This document shows positions 33,962-52,145 of a stretch of DNA of 64,000 nucleotides, piece after piece. A program made the translations under genes and the position numbers. Each line of letters begins with the position of its first letter. The stretch's first letter is position 1. Origin of the DNA: Gracilinema caldarium DSM 7334 (GTDB taxonomy: Bacteria; Spirochaetota; Spirochaetia; Treponematales; Breznakiellaceae). The notes below the pieces were generated by a model. It saw only the letters and a program-made list of their open reading frames with translations. It was not told the DNA's origin and made no database searches. The stretch spans positions 806,001 through 870,000 of the forward strand of contig NC_015732.1 of assembly GCF_000219725.1 (NCBI RefSeq), read 5' to 3'.

Positions 33962-33988
33962 CAATTTTGGTATATTTCCTGCAGTCAG

Positions 33989-34060
33989 GGCGCCGTACCC
34001 AAGCGGTAAGGGAGAGGTCTGCAAAACCTTTATGCGACAGTTCGATTCTGTCCGGCGCCT
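33989..34060 (+). tRNA. tRNA-Cys (anticodon GCA)
   Basis: A full cloverleaf: acceptor GGCGCCG/CGGCGCC, anticodon stem GAGGT/ACCTT with loop CTGCAAA, T-arm GACAG-TTCGATT-CTGTC, discriminator T. CCA is not encoded. It lies 27 bases after the Fur-family gene and is followed by a strong terminator. Confidence 0.95.
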
Positions 34061-34070
34061 CTCTATTAGA

Positions 34071-34098
34071 CCCCGGCGACATGTCGCCGGGGTTTTTT
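34071..34098 (+). terminator. Rho-independent terminator after tRNA-Cys
   Basis: CCCCGGCGAC (34071-34080) and GTCGCCGGGG (34083-34092) form a 10-bp self-complementary stem, followed by six T. It ends the operon plus tRNA-Cys transcript. Confidence 0.92.
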
Positions 34099-34149: not shown

Positions 34150-35220
34150 ATGCGTCCTACGATAAAACGAATTGCGGAACTAGCTGGAGTTTCAAAAACC
34201 GCCGTATCCTTTGCTTTTAATGACCCTTCTAAAATTGCCCGATCTACCTATGAACGGATCATGGAGATTGCAGAACGGGAAGGCTATGTTCCTGATCCAA
34301 TTGCCCGTACTATGACCAGCAAACGGGTTGGTGCTATCGGTGTACTGCTTCCCCAGGCTATCCAGGATACATTTCGAAATCCCTATGTCTCAGAGGTGCT
34401 CCGGGGAATCGGCACGGTTTGCCATCAAGAAGATCTTTTTCTTACCATATTGCCACCCATCAAAGGATTCCTTTCTCAGGCAGTTCGGAATGCGGTGGTG
34501 GATGGTTTCATTTCCCTTGGAGTTGAAACTGCACCGGAGATCGCCGCTCTGATCCGCCAACGTAATGTGCCCTTTGTAACTATAGATGGAGACGCCGATT
34601 CAGGCATTACCAATGTAGGTATTGATGATACGGTCGCAGCTGAAACAATTATGAACTATGTACTCTCACTTGGGCATCGTGAAATTATTATTCTTTCTCT
34701 AAAGAGTGAGGGGCCTGGTACTGCGGAAGAACATTCCTCACGAACAGTAGACCGTCGGCTTGCCGGTTTCGAACGAGCATTACAGAATCATGGTCTCTCA
34801 TTGCATAGCCCGAATATACGTGTTGTTCCGGTAGAAGTAACGATGGAATCAGCAGAAGAAGCACTCCTTCCCCTTATGAGCTATAAGATTCCTACCGCTA
34901 TTGTCAGCATGAGCGACTCTGCTGCTTTAGGCGCCTATGTAGCTTGCAAACGGTTAGGAATTGCTATTCCAGCAGAAATCACCATAACTGGTATGGATGA
35001 TATTCCTTTTGCTTCTATAATAAATCCCGCAATGACTACGATTCGTCAACCAGGACAAAGAAAGGGATCCTATGCAGCTCGAGCCGTATTGGATATGATG
35101 CAAGGGCGGGTTGTGGCTTCTGTGATTTTGCCAACTGAACTTGTGATTCGGGAGTCCAGTAGTACTCCTCGATCGGTCCCCTTGGCTGTGAAAGCTGTAA
35201 CCCTGGGGAATAAACCATAG
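34150..35220 (+). CDS. LacI/GalR-family transcriptional regulator
   Basis: This 356-residue repressor has an N-terminal LacI helix-turn-helix (IKRIAELAGVSKTAVSFAFNDPSKIARSTYERI) and hinge. A sugar-binding-like effector domain follows, including GVLLPQ, VTIDGDAD, and ITGMDDIPFASIINPAMTTI. It is not next to an obvious transport operon; its neighbours are tRNA-Cys and a convergent nucleotidyltransferase. A perfect 22-bp LacI-type palindrome at 50194-50215 is a possible target, but other LacI proteins could bind it. The start lacks a clear SD. Confidence 0.92.
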   Translation: MRPTIKRIAELAGVSKTAVSFAFNDPSKIARSTYERIMEIAEREGYVPDPIARTMTSKRVGAIGVLLPQAIQDTFRNPYVSEVLRGIGTVCHQEDLFLTILPPIKGFLSQAVRNAVVDGFISLGVETAPEIAALIRQRNVPFVTIDGDADSGITNVGIDDTVAAETIMNYVLSLGHREIIILSLKSEGPGTAEEHSSRTVDRRLAGFERALQNHGLSLHSPNIRVVPVEVTMESAEEALLPLMSYKIPTAIVSMSDSAALGAYVACKRLGIAIPAEITITGMDDIPFASIINPAMTTIRQPGQRKGSYAARAVLDMMQGRVVASVILPTELVIRESSSTPRSVPLAVKAVTLGNKP

Positions 35221-48743: not shown

Positions 48744-50066
48744 TTAGACTTTTAGGATAAGCACCCCTTTGGGGAGTTCTACCCGTCCTGAAAGTGAAAT
48801 AGCCTCGCCGGTGAGCATATTAGTACCCTCTAAAGTGGTGTCCAATTCTATAAACCCGCTTCGGTCATCCAGGTTGCAGAGGGCCTGATAGCGGACCTTC
48901 TCCCCCGATCGCTCAATGAGTACCACCCCTTCAGCAAGTTCTTTATAGGAGAATCGTGGAGCCTGGGCTTTGATTGTCTGGGTTATTGAGAATAATGTGG
49001 TAAAGAATGCTTTAAACAACCTGTCTCCCTGTTCCCAGGGAACAGGATTTTTTTCAAATAGGGTTGGATATTCATCAATAGCATATTCTTGGCCCATATA
49101 TGCAAAGGTACAGCCCGGTAGAAGTTGATAAAAAGCAGTCCATGCTTCAAGCCGTTTCCCTTTACCAAAGCGATATGCAGCACGGCGCTGGTCATGGTTT
49201 TCCAGATATCGTATTTTCCCTGCCCATGCAGGGTATAAAGCCCGCTGGACCTCAAGGTAATCTAAATAATAGCTCAGAGGGCGCTTTCCGGCCCATACCT
49301 GCTCAAGCCGTTGCCAGCCATCGTAGTCATAGGTGAGGTCAAAGGCATCGTGTAGTTCCGCCTCCGACCAAGCTGGAAAACCTCTGTCCCGTAGGTACAG
49401 TAAAAATGAAGGGTGTACACTCTCAGCAAGCCACAGGGTGGGGCGCTTTTCATCGCCGATGGCGGGGTCCCAGAGGTTGACTCGACTGCGAGCTTCTATC
49501 CAGAATTCCCGGGGTACGAGGGATGCCACATCACAACGAAAACCTTCAATACCCAATTCCCGCCAGTATACGAGGGTTTCAATGAGTTCATCCCACAGCT
49601 GTGGGCGTGAGCTTTCTGAAAGATAATCCAGATCGATGACATCGGACCAGTCATTGCATTTTCTTCCAGGTTTCCCCGACGGTCCTGTAAGGAACCATTC
49701 GGGATGTTCCTGTGCGAGTCGTGAATCGGGTGATGTATGGTTGTAGACCACATCTATCATTACTTTGAGGTTAAACCGCTGTGCTTCGGTTATAAACTGT
49801 TTCAGATCTTCCAGGGTCCCCAGTTCGCTATCCACTTTTCGGTAATCCGCAATAGCATAGGGACTTCCCTTGCTGCCCTTGCGGTTAACCCTTCCAATAG
49901 GATGAATCGGTGTGAGGTAGACCCAAGAAAAGCCCAGTTGTTTCACTTCTGATAATTTTTTTGTAGCCGCGGCAAAGGTGCCCTCTGGGGTATAGTTTCT
50001 TATAAAGATCTGATAGATGGAGGTTGTTTCCGGTACGGCTTTACTCATTCTTACGGAGTATGACAT
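48744..50066 (-). CDS. Glycoside hydrolase family 13 (alpha-amylase-type) enzyme
   Basis: This 440-residue intracellular TIM-barrel enzyme has the GH13 motifs: VYNH (region I), EGFRCDVASLVP (nucleophile Asp), LWLAESVHPS (acid/base Glu) and YLENHDQRR (transition-state Asp). There is no signal peptide. Without domains for a debranching or cyclising enzyme it is probably an alpha-glucan hydrolase or transferase; precise linkage cannot be told. AAGAGGCG precedes ATG 50066. It is divergent from pyk, and a LacI-type palindrome lies in the shared intergenic region. Confidence 0.9.
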   Translation of the reverse strand: MSYSVRMSKAVPETTSIYQIFIRNYTPEGTFAAATKKLSEVKQLGFSWVYLTPIHPIGRVNRKGSKGSPYAIADYRKVDSELGTLEDLKQFITEAQRFNLKVMIDVVYNHTSPDSRLAQEHPEWFLTGPSGKPGRKCNDWSDVIDLDYLSESSRPQLWDELIETLVYWRELGIEGFRCDVASLVPREFWIEARSRVNLWDPAIGDEKRPTLWLAESVHPSFLLYLRDRGFPAWSEAELHDAFDLTYDYDGWQRLEQVWAGKRPLSYYLDYLEVQRALYPAWAGKIRYLENHDQRRAAYRFGKGKRLEAWTAFYQLLPGCTFAYMGQEYAIDEYPTLFEKNPVPWEQGDRLFKAFFTTLFSITQTIKAQAPRFSYKELAEGVVLIERSGEKVRYQALCNLDDRSGFIELDTTLEGTNMLTGEAISLSGRVELPKGVLILKV

Positions 50067-50193
50067 AATTACGCCTCTTGAAAGATTTACAATTTTACGA
50101 CATGCTTTATGTGTAAAATGTAATATATAGGATTGTAACCTATGTTTTGGAGGCTATATAAGCTTCCTCGGTATTTGTAGGTGTACATCTTAC

Positions 50194-50215
50194 AATATTA
50201 AACCGGTTTAATATT
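50194..50215. promoter_or_regulatory. Perfect 22-bp palindrome of LacI-family operator type
   Basis: AATATTAAACC and GGTTTAATATT are exact inverted copies with a C|G centre. The core AAACCGGTTT resembles LacI/GalR-family operators. It lies directly upstream of TTGACA (50217-50222), between the GH13 gene and pyk, where a bound protein would block the -35 region. Two LacI-type regulators are encoded in the window. Confidence 0.72.
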
Positions 50216-50257
50216 TTTGACAAGCAGTCCTTACTATAGGACTGGGTTGATTCATTT

Positions 50258-50323
50258 TAAGGTGCCTCTAAAAACGCGGTTAGATATGTAGAGGTCCTCT
50301 TTAGGTAACACCTTAATGAGGTG
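50258..50323 (+). promoter_or_regulatory. Structured pyk leader with competing stems
   Basis: P1 pairs TAAGGTG (50258-50264) with CACCTTA (50309-50315). P2 pairs CCTCTA (50265-50270) with TAGAGG (50289-50294) directly on top of it. CACCT (50309-50313) can instead pair with AGGTG (50319-50323), breaking P1. The same CACCT arm could also pair with AAGGT near the SD (50332-50340). This is the layout of a switchable leader ending 22 bases before ATG 50346. It matches no class I know. Confidence 0.55.
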
Positions 50324-50345
50324 CTCAAGGAAAGGTAGGAGAGTA

Positions 50346-52145
50346 ATGGCATTTGAACGAAACACCAGAATTATCTGTACCATGGGACCGGCAGTTCGCA
50401 GTGTGGATATGATCCGTTCTCTGATACGCCGAGGCATGAATATGGCTCGGTTTAACTTTTCCCATGGGGATCACGAGTATCATGGGGAAGGGATCCATAT
50501 GGTTCGTGAAGCAGCTCGTTTGGAAGGGGTTCCAATAGCGCTTATTTTGGATACGAAGGGTCCCGAAATTCGAACCGGTCAGATACAAGATGGGGGAACC
50601 ATAACACTTCAGAACGGGCAGTTTATCGAGGTGATTGCTGAAGTTGAGGCAAAGAACCGCTATGGAGATCAAGGTCTTTTTACAACACCGGACCGGCTTA
50701 CAGTTTCCTATGCTGATCTTGCCCAGGATGTTAAGCCAGGCGCCCGAATATTGATTGCTGACGGCCTTTTTTCCCTCGATGTTGTTCAGGTGGATGGTCC
50801 CAGTATCCGTTGTAGGGTTACTAATGGGGGAGTCCTCGGAAGCCGAAAAAATGTGAATGTTATCGGTGTGCGAACCCGATTACCTGCCCTGTCAGAGCAA
50901 GATAAGGCGGACATTTCATTTGGGGTTGAACAGGGGATGGATTTTATTGCCGCATCTTTTGTTCGGAAAGCCGCTGATGTAACGACCATTCACAAATATT
51001 TAGCAACCCTTAATTCGGATATACCTGTCATTGCAAAGATTGAAGATGAAGAGGGTCTTGAAAATATCGAAGAAATAATACGGGTTTCTGCAGGTATTAT
51101 GGTTGCCCGAGGCGATTTAGGTGTCCAGATTCCTACCGAACGGGTGCCTCTCGAACAAAAACGTATCATCAGATTATGTAATCATGCTGGTAAGCCTGTC
51201 ATTACCGCTACCCAGATGCTTGAATCGATGATTAAAAATCCCCGCCCTACCCGTGCTGAAGCAGGAGATGTGGCTAATGCAATTCTTGATGGTACCGATT
51301 GTGTTATGTTGTCAGGAGAAACCGCTAATGGCCAATTTCCCGAAGCTGCCGTTTCTGTAATGGATCAGATTGCCCGTACGGTGGAAGCTTCTGATGAATA
51401 TATACGATCTCTTGAAGAACGGCGTAATACTATTGCTACGAACGAAGATATCGCGGATGCCATCGCCGATGCGTCTGCGCAGATTGCGGATCGTATTGGG
51501 GCGGTTGCTCTGGTAGTACCGACCCTACGGGGGAATACGGCCAAACTTATTAGTCGGCATCGTCCAAGACGCAAAATTATCGCCGCTACTCCAAGCGAGA
51601 CGGTACAGCGGCGGCTTCTACTCCATTGGGGCGTGGTTCCAGTCAAGGTAGAACAGGAATCAGATTCCGAATCCATGATACAAAAGGCTATAAGCGCAGC
51701 CATTAAAGAAGGTTTTGCAAAAAAAGCTGATAAGGTTGTGGTTGTTGCGGGTATTCCTCTTAATTCACCCCTTATGACCAACAGTATTCGGGTTCATGTA
51801 ATCGGCAATATACTCGGTCGAGGACTTAATGGATTTGGAGGTCGTTGTACCGGTAGGATTGTGAAGGCTCGGACTCTAGAGGATGCCGCCCTGGCGCTTC
51901 GGAAAAATGGCGGTGAAATTCTTCTTACCCACACTCTGGACGAAAGTTTTATTCCCATACTTAGGGTTGTAGATGGGGTAATTCTCGAGGGAGTCTCTGA
52001 AATGCCCTGGGAAATGGTTAAGATAATCAATCCCAGCATCGTCTATGTTTCCCAAGTGCCCCAGGCTCTCGATCACTTCGAAGAGCATATCACGGTTACT
52101 CTGGATGGCTATGAGAAGCTTATCTATGAAGGGGCGCTTTTATAA
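50346..52145 (+). CDS. pyk: Pyruvate kinase with C-terminal PEP-utilising-type extension
   Basis: This 599-residue enzyme converts PEP and ADP to pyruvate and ATP, the last step of glycolysis. N-terminal NTRIICTMGPAVRS, the active-site block VIAKIEDEEGLENIEEII, MVARGDLGVQIP, and KPVITATQMLESM are diagnostic. Usual length is about 475; the extra C-terminal 120 residues (GRGLNGFGGRCTGRIVKA... to the end) resemble the mobile PEP-synthase/PPDK domain found in some Gram-positive pyruvate kinases. ATG 50346 with TAGGAGAG is chosen over the upstream frame from 50316. A structured leader and an operator-like palindrome precede it. Confidence 0.93.
   Translation: MAFERNTRIICTMGPAVRSVDMIRSLIRRGMNMARFNFSHGDHEYHGEGIHMVREAARLEGVPIALILDTKGPEIRTGQIQDGGTITLQNGQFIEVIAEVEAKNRYGDQGLFTTPDRLTVSYADLAQDVKPGARILIADGLFSLDVVQVDGPSIRCRVTNGGVLGSRKNVNVIGVRTRLPALSEQDKADISFGVEQGMDFIAASFVRKAADVTTIHKYLATLNSDIPVIAKIEDEEGLENIEEIIRVSAGIMVARGDLGVQIPTERVPLEQKRIIRLCNHAGKPVITATQMLESMIKNPRPTRAEAGDVANAILDGTDCVMLSGETANGQFPEAAVSVMDQIARTVEASDEYIRSLEERRNTIATNEDIADAIADASAQIADRIGAVALVVPTLRGNTAKLISRHRPRRKIIAATPSETVQRRLLLHWGVVPVKVEQESDSESMIQKAISAAIKEGFAKKADKVVVVAGIPLNSPLMTNSIRVHVIGNILGRGLNGFGGRCTGRIVKARTLEDAALALRKNGGEILLTHTLDESFIPILRVVDGVILEGVSEMPWEMVKIINPSIVYVSQVPQALDHFEEHITVTLDGYEKLIYEGALL

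Follow-up and report, generated by a model that had tools for sequence, protein, structure and literature searches.

Maltose regulons under LacI-family control are well known. The closest described systems, those of MalR, MdxR, and MalI in Firmicutes, Actinobacteria, and Proteobacteria, combine a LacI-family protein with an even palindrome that has a central CG. Their targets are also shared: alpha-glucan hydrolases, malQ, phosphorylase, and an ABC transporter. LacI-family sites usually take the form of an even palindrome with a central CG, and a 2014 survey of LacI regulons spanned seven phyla, Spirochaetes not among them (PMC4052901). The LacI family is also known for the control of glycolytic genes, including pyk, as exemplified by CcpA, FruR/Cra, GapR, PckR, and GluR; for pyk, such control is known or predicted in several phyla (PMC4052901). 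Two LacI-type regulators of Bifidobacterium breve, AraQ and MalR1, have sites at maltodextrin genes and at pyk as well; they bind at a position 15 bp ahead of the −35 box of pyk and activate the gene, and AraQ represses malQ and glgP (PMC6882875). Neither a spirochete LacI maltose regulon nor a pyk riboswitch was met in a limited literature search, which is no proof of absence.

The locus analyzed here lies in a 64-kb window (64,000 nucleotides) of Gracilinema caldarium DSM 7334, a strain that ferments maltose and starch (PMC3739177). The window covers positions 806001 to 870000 of a 3,239,340-bp genome assembled as a single contig; coordinates below are those of the window unless given as genome positions. 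The site is a divergent intergenic region between a GH13 alpha-amylase-family gene on the minus strand (48744 to 50066; Pfam PF00128) and pyk on the plus strand (50346 to 52145), which encodes a 599-residue pyruvate kinase (PF00224 and PF02887) and is the sole PK-domain gene detected in the genome. The pyk start at 50346 matches the start in relatives (MAFERNTRII). An in-frame ATG at 50316 was rejected as the start, as relatives begin at the position equivalent to 50346.

The original prediction had described a perfect 22-bp palindrome next to TTGACA in this region and had proposed that it is an operator. The palindrome, AATATTAAACCGGTTTAATATT, is present at 50194 to 50215 and reads the same on both strands, and TTGACA follows at 50217 to 50222, one base beyond its end. 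It is even, with a central CG, as is usual for LacI-family operators, and a scan of the window found just one other perfect palindrome of more than 16 bp. Comparison of the window genome with three congeners, all of which have the divergent amylase-pyk arrangement, showed that the operator sits in this intergenic region in every species and that the block TATTAAACCGGTTTAA is identical throughout, while the length and sequence of the pyk leader diverge within the genus. An 18-bp version of the motif was ruled out as a regulon signature because it finds a good match only at the amylase/pyk site of each genome; at other sites of the motif, the outer bases are asymmetric. The probable functional core is thus the 12-bp sequence TAAACCGGTTTA (50199 to 50210), which is found again in front of alpha-glucan genes, and the full 22-bp symmetry is a local feature. 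Conservation between species, together with the recurrence of the motif across a regulon, bears out the proposal that the palindrome is most likely an operator. The other long palindrome in the window (24 bp, GC-rich, 34070 to 34093) is followed by a T run and looks like an ordinary terminator. A tRNA-like stretch precedes it (anticodon region CTGCAAA), probably tRNA-Cys as judged by eye, and the stretch and terminator, which together span 33983 to 34093, sit just upstream of a LacI paralog that begins at 34150.

The regulon was mapped by a genome pattern search and inspection of individual stretches. With at most one mismatch, TAAACCGGTTTA occurs at 13 places in the genome; eight of these are intergenic, in seven regions, and all eight adjoin alpha-glucan genes, the remaining copies lying within open reading frames. 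The copies are found at genome positions 79069 (pfkB-pullulanase), 105907 (GH13/debranching enzyme), 112948 (sugar-binding protein/cyclomaltodextrinase-like GH13), 387653 and 387667 (a double site at a CBM48-type protein), 497362 (malQ), 856199 (amylase/pyk), and 3167645 (glycogen phosphorylase). At two mismatches, the motif is far less specific (254 matches versus 137 in the control). Exact copies number 34 in 16 relatives, versus 0 for a reversed-pattern control, and at least 29 of the 34 adjoin alpha-glucan genes; four adjoin genes without an obvious alpha-glucan link. A count over 119 genomes of the order gave 68 copies versus 12 in the control. Three genomes (G049, G058, and G046) lack an exact site despite having an amylase or LacI homolog. 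Taken together, the core is conserved across species and is found repeatedly in front of a coherent group of carbohydrate genes, and on this sequence evidence TAAACCGGTTTA marks a predicted alpha-glucan (starch, maltodextrin, glycogen) regulon.

The same comparison separates the operator from pyk. Outside the genus, a perfect TAAACCGGTTTA lies close upstream of the amylase orthologs of four genomes (G020, G039, G044, and G055), where no pyk is found alongside. Conversely, the regions upstream of pyk in other genera match the core at 9 of 12 positions at best, including that of G018, which has the regulon. Because the site accompanies alpha-glucan genes and is absent from pyk outside Gracilinema, the operator would belong to the alpha-glucan genes, with pyk as a neighbor. 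The original view of it as a pyk element is therefore not upheld: its distribution across the spirochete order follows that of alpha-glucan genes and of the divergent amylase.

Some of the sites have neighbors worth recording. The 79069 site (L128:11471) has a DeoR-type regulator gene on one side and the gene for a PfkB-family sugar kinase on the other; a pullulanase-like GH13 gene comes after that of the kinase, which suggests that the kinase is tied to alpha-glucan use. Exact copies are also found in front of ABC-type ATPase and ABC-2 permease genes in two relatives (L206:2049 in G044 and L234:2039 in G039); these have no obvious alpha-glucan tie and may represent an additional branch of the regulon.

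A putative amylase promoter, identified by consensus match, lies on the minus strand at 50195 to 50223, with TTGTCA (50223 to 50218) and TAATAT (50200 to 50195) separated by a 17-nt spacer, and is among the best consensus matches of the region. Its geometry is kept among the three congeners, in which TTGTCA, TTGCCA, or TTGCAA is followed after 17 nt by TAATAT. The palindrome overlaps the spacer and −10 box of this predicted promoter, which is the classical position for repression, and the plus-strand TTGACA overlaps the complement of the amylase −35 box; the strongest candidate promoter built on this box is that of the amylase. The amylase gene is most likely the main target of the operator, with pyk a possible second one, although the operator lies farther from the amylase start in Gracilinema (110 to 160 nt) than in other genera (17 to 35 nt). 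From these computed features, we infer with considerable confidence that the palindrome is the operator of a LacI-family regulon for alpha-glucans (starch, pullulan, maltodextrin, glycogen) in Treponematales, through which the amylase promoter would be repressed. A LacI-type dimer would bind TAAACCGGTTTA and, when its inducer (probably a maltodextrin) is absent, would block the minus-strand promoter across the spacer and −10 box. In the presence of the sugar, the repressor would be released, and the amylase, CBM48 protein, pullulanase, 4-alpha-glucanotransferase, glycogen phosphorylase, and transporter genes would be switched on jointly; pyk, across the same operator, may be coregulated. What emerges is a testable starch/glycogen regulon for a spirochete order, with its operator, its targets, and a pair of candidate regulators, in a phylum outside the main LacI survey. 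Its value lies more in annotation than in surprise.

The first of the two candidate regulators is encoded at genome position 2,386,972, as the last gene of an operon comprising a binding protein, two permeases, a GH13 enzyme, and the LacI protein. The core occurs twice, in overlapping copies, 25 to 50 bp before the first gene of this operon. Congeners have a copy of the motif before the same binding-protein gene and retain the LacI ortholog, and in G038 a homolog of this LacI gene shares a stretch with a binding-protein gene that the operator precedes, so that a LacI gene is linked to the motif in both settings. The second candidate is a 356-residue LacI-family paralog encoded within the window (34150 to 35220, plus strand); it is an ortholog of a LacI protein of G020, a genome that also carries the operator. 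The two paralogs are 49% identical and form, with homologs from other families, one well-supported clade. All NCBIfam scores fall well below the cutoffs, those of known maltose regulators included (MalI, 77 to 78 bits versus 310), and the spirochete clade is not a recognized equivalog. Unlike MalR, MdxR, and MalI, it has its own core, TAAACCGGTTTA. The core differs likewise from the GTGAGC-GCTCAC operator core of B. breve AraQ and MalR1.

Because the genome has twelve LacI genes, assignment of the operator to the paralog clade rests on context, and the regulator is likely one or both of these two proteins. That another of the twelve, or the DeoR-family protein encoded beside the 79069 site, binds the palindrome instead is improbable: the number of LacI genes and the DeoR-type gene flanking one site would allow it, but only the LacI gene at 2,386,972 was found in a motif-preceded operon, the best matches upstream of the remaining LacI genes reach at most 9 of 12 positions, and the shape of the motif is typical of LacI-family sites. 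A separate question is whether the predicted LacI operator serves both divergent genes, the same protein tuning pyk along with the amylase, by repression if a TATA-like box at 50233 to 50240 is the pyk promoter or by activation from upstream. We consider such shared control conceivable, although the balance of the evidence is somewhat against it. In each of the four Gracilinema species, the operator separates the amylase gene from pyk and is 80 to 141 nt from the pyk start, a TATA-like box occurs on the pyk side in three of the four, and the LacI-type regulators of B. breve provide a precedent for binding at pyk and its activation (PMC6882875). The spacing from the operator center to the pyk ATG varies, however (141, 100, 80, and 80 nt in the four congeners), and every pyk gene examined outside the genus is without the site, including the one in the regulon-bearing G018. 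Nor did the plus strand yield a sigma-70-like promoter that uses TTGACA; the window genome has no suitable −10 box 16 to 18 nt away, which ruled out TTGACA as the pyk −35 box. Control of pyk by the operator is thus possible and is backed here by adjacency, whereas in B. breve both binding at pyk and activation have been shown. Unlike the sites of CcpA, FruR/Cra, GapR, PckR, and GluR, the motif follows alpha-glucan genes, and pyk is the sole glycolytic gene seen beside a site, as a neighbor. A stronger version, limited to Gracilinema, in which a starch-sensing LacI protein has captured the sole pyk through an operator shared by divergent amylase and pyk promoters, is doubtful; if true, polysaccharide supply would directly set the last step of glycolysis.

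The remaining alternative concerns the pyk leader RNA, which the original prediction had taken to be a switch that could sense a glycolytic metabolite, so that pyk would be under unusual double control by transcription and by leader RNA. An operator at pyk would not in itself be unusual, since LacI-family control of glycolytic genes is well known. The complementary segments do exist on the plus strand: P1 (TAAGGTG/CACCTTA, 50258 to 50264 with 50309 to 50315), P2 (CCTCTA/TAGAGG, 50265 to 50270 with 50289 to 50294), and, by reading of the sequence, the alternative hairpin CACCT-TAATG-AGGTG (50309 to 50313 with 50319 to 50323), which is mutually exclusive with P1/P2. Their function as RNA is unsupported. 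In two congeners the leader folds better than shuffled sequences (z = −2.5 and −2.7) but into unrelated structures, and the window leader folds no better than chance (z = +0.30 and +0.38), with the stem region reaching only −1.3 to −1.5 when trimmed to its best boundaries. Stems of 7 bp that enclose a nested 6-bp stem are present in 1.9% of the 123-nt stretches of the window and in 2.4% of dinucleotide shuffles, a frequency of about 2% at which the 64-kb window would hold several by chance. Paired-base conservation, the test set beforehand on which the leader claim was to stand or fall, is absent: within Gracilinema, leaders vary in both length and sequence, the leader alignment contains no P1/P2 counterparts in the three congeners, and a similar short hairpin is present in one of them (G002) and missing in the other two. 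In the predicted leader structure the SD sequence is free, and neither structure hides it; the CACCT-AGGTG hairpin stops about 13 nt short of the SD, leaving it uncovered. No terminator was found in the leader, and an Rfam scan of 48 to 53 kb gave no match up to E = 5. The leader thus displays neither a conserved, covarying structure nor an expression platform (terminator or SD sequestration), and it matches no Rfam family. The pairings are probably incidental products of chance, a leader that toggles between P1/P2 and CACCT-AGGTG in response to a metabolite is very unlikely, and the proposed double control of pyk loses its support along with it. A false lead of a glycolytic riboswitch is thereby removed.

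Two further features were noted at the locus. An AT-rich stretch at 50072 to 50125, with inverted-repeat character (ATTTTAC...GTAAAAT), lies directly upstream of the amylase SD and is kept in the four congeners. Residues ∼487 to 599 of the pyruvate kinase form a C-terminal extension past the PK_C domain that, by eye, resembles the PEP-utilizing mobile domain of some bacterial pyruvate kinases; it is matched in several Treponematales and Clostridia relatives and absent from others.
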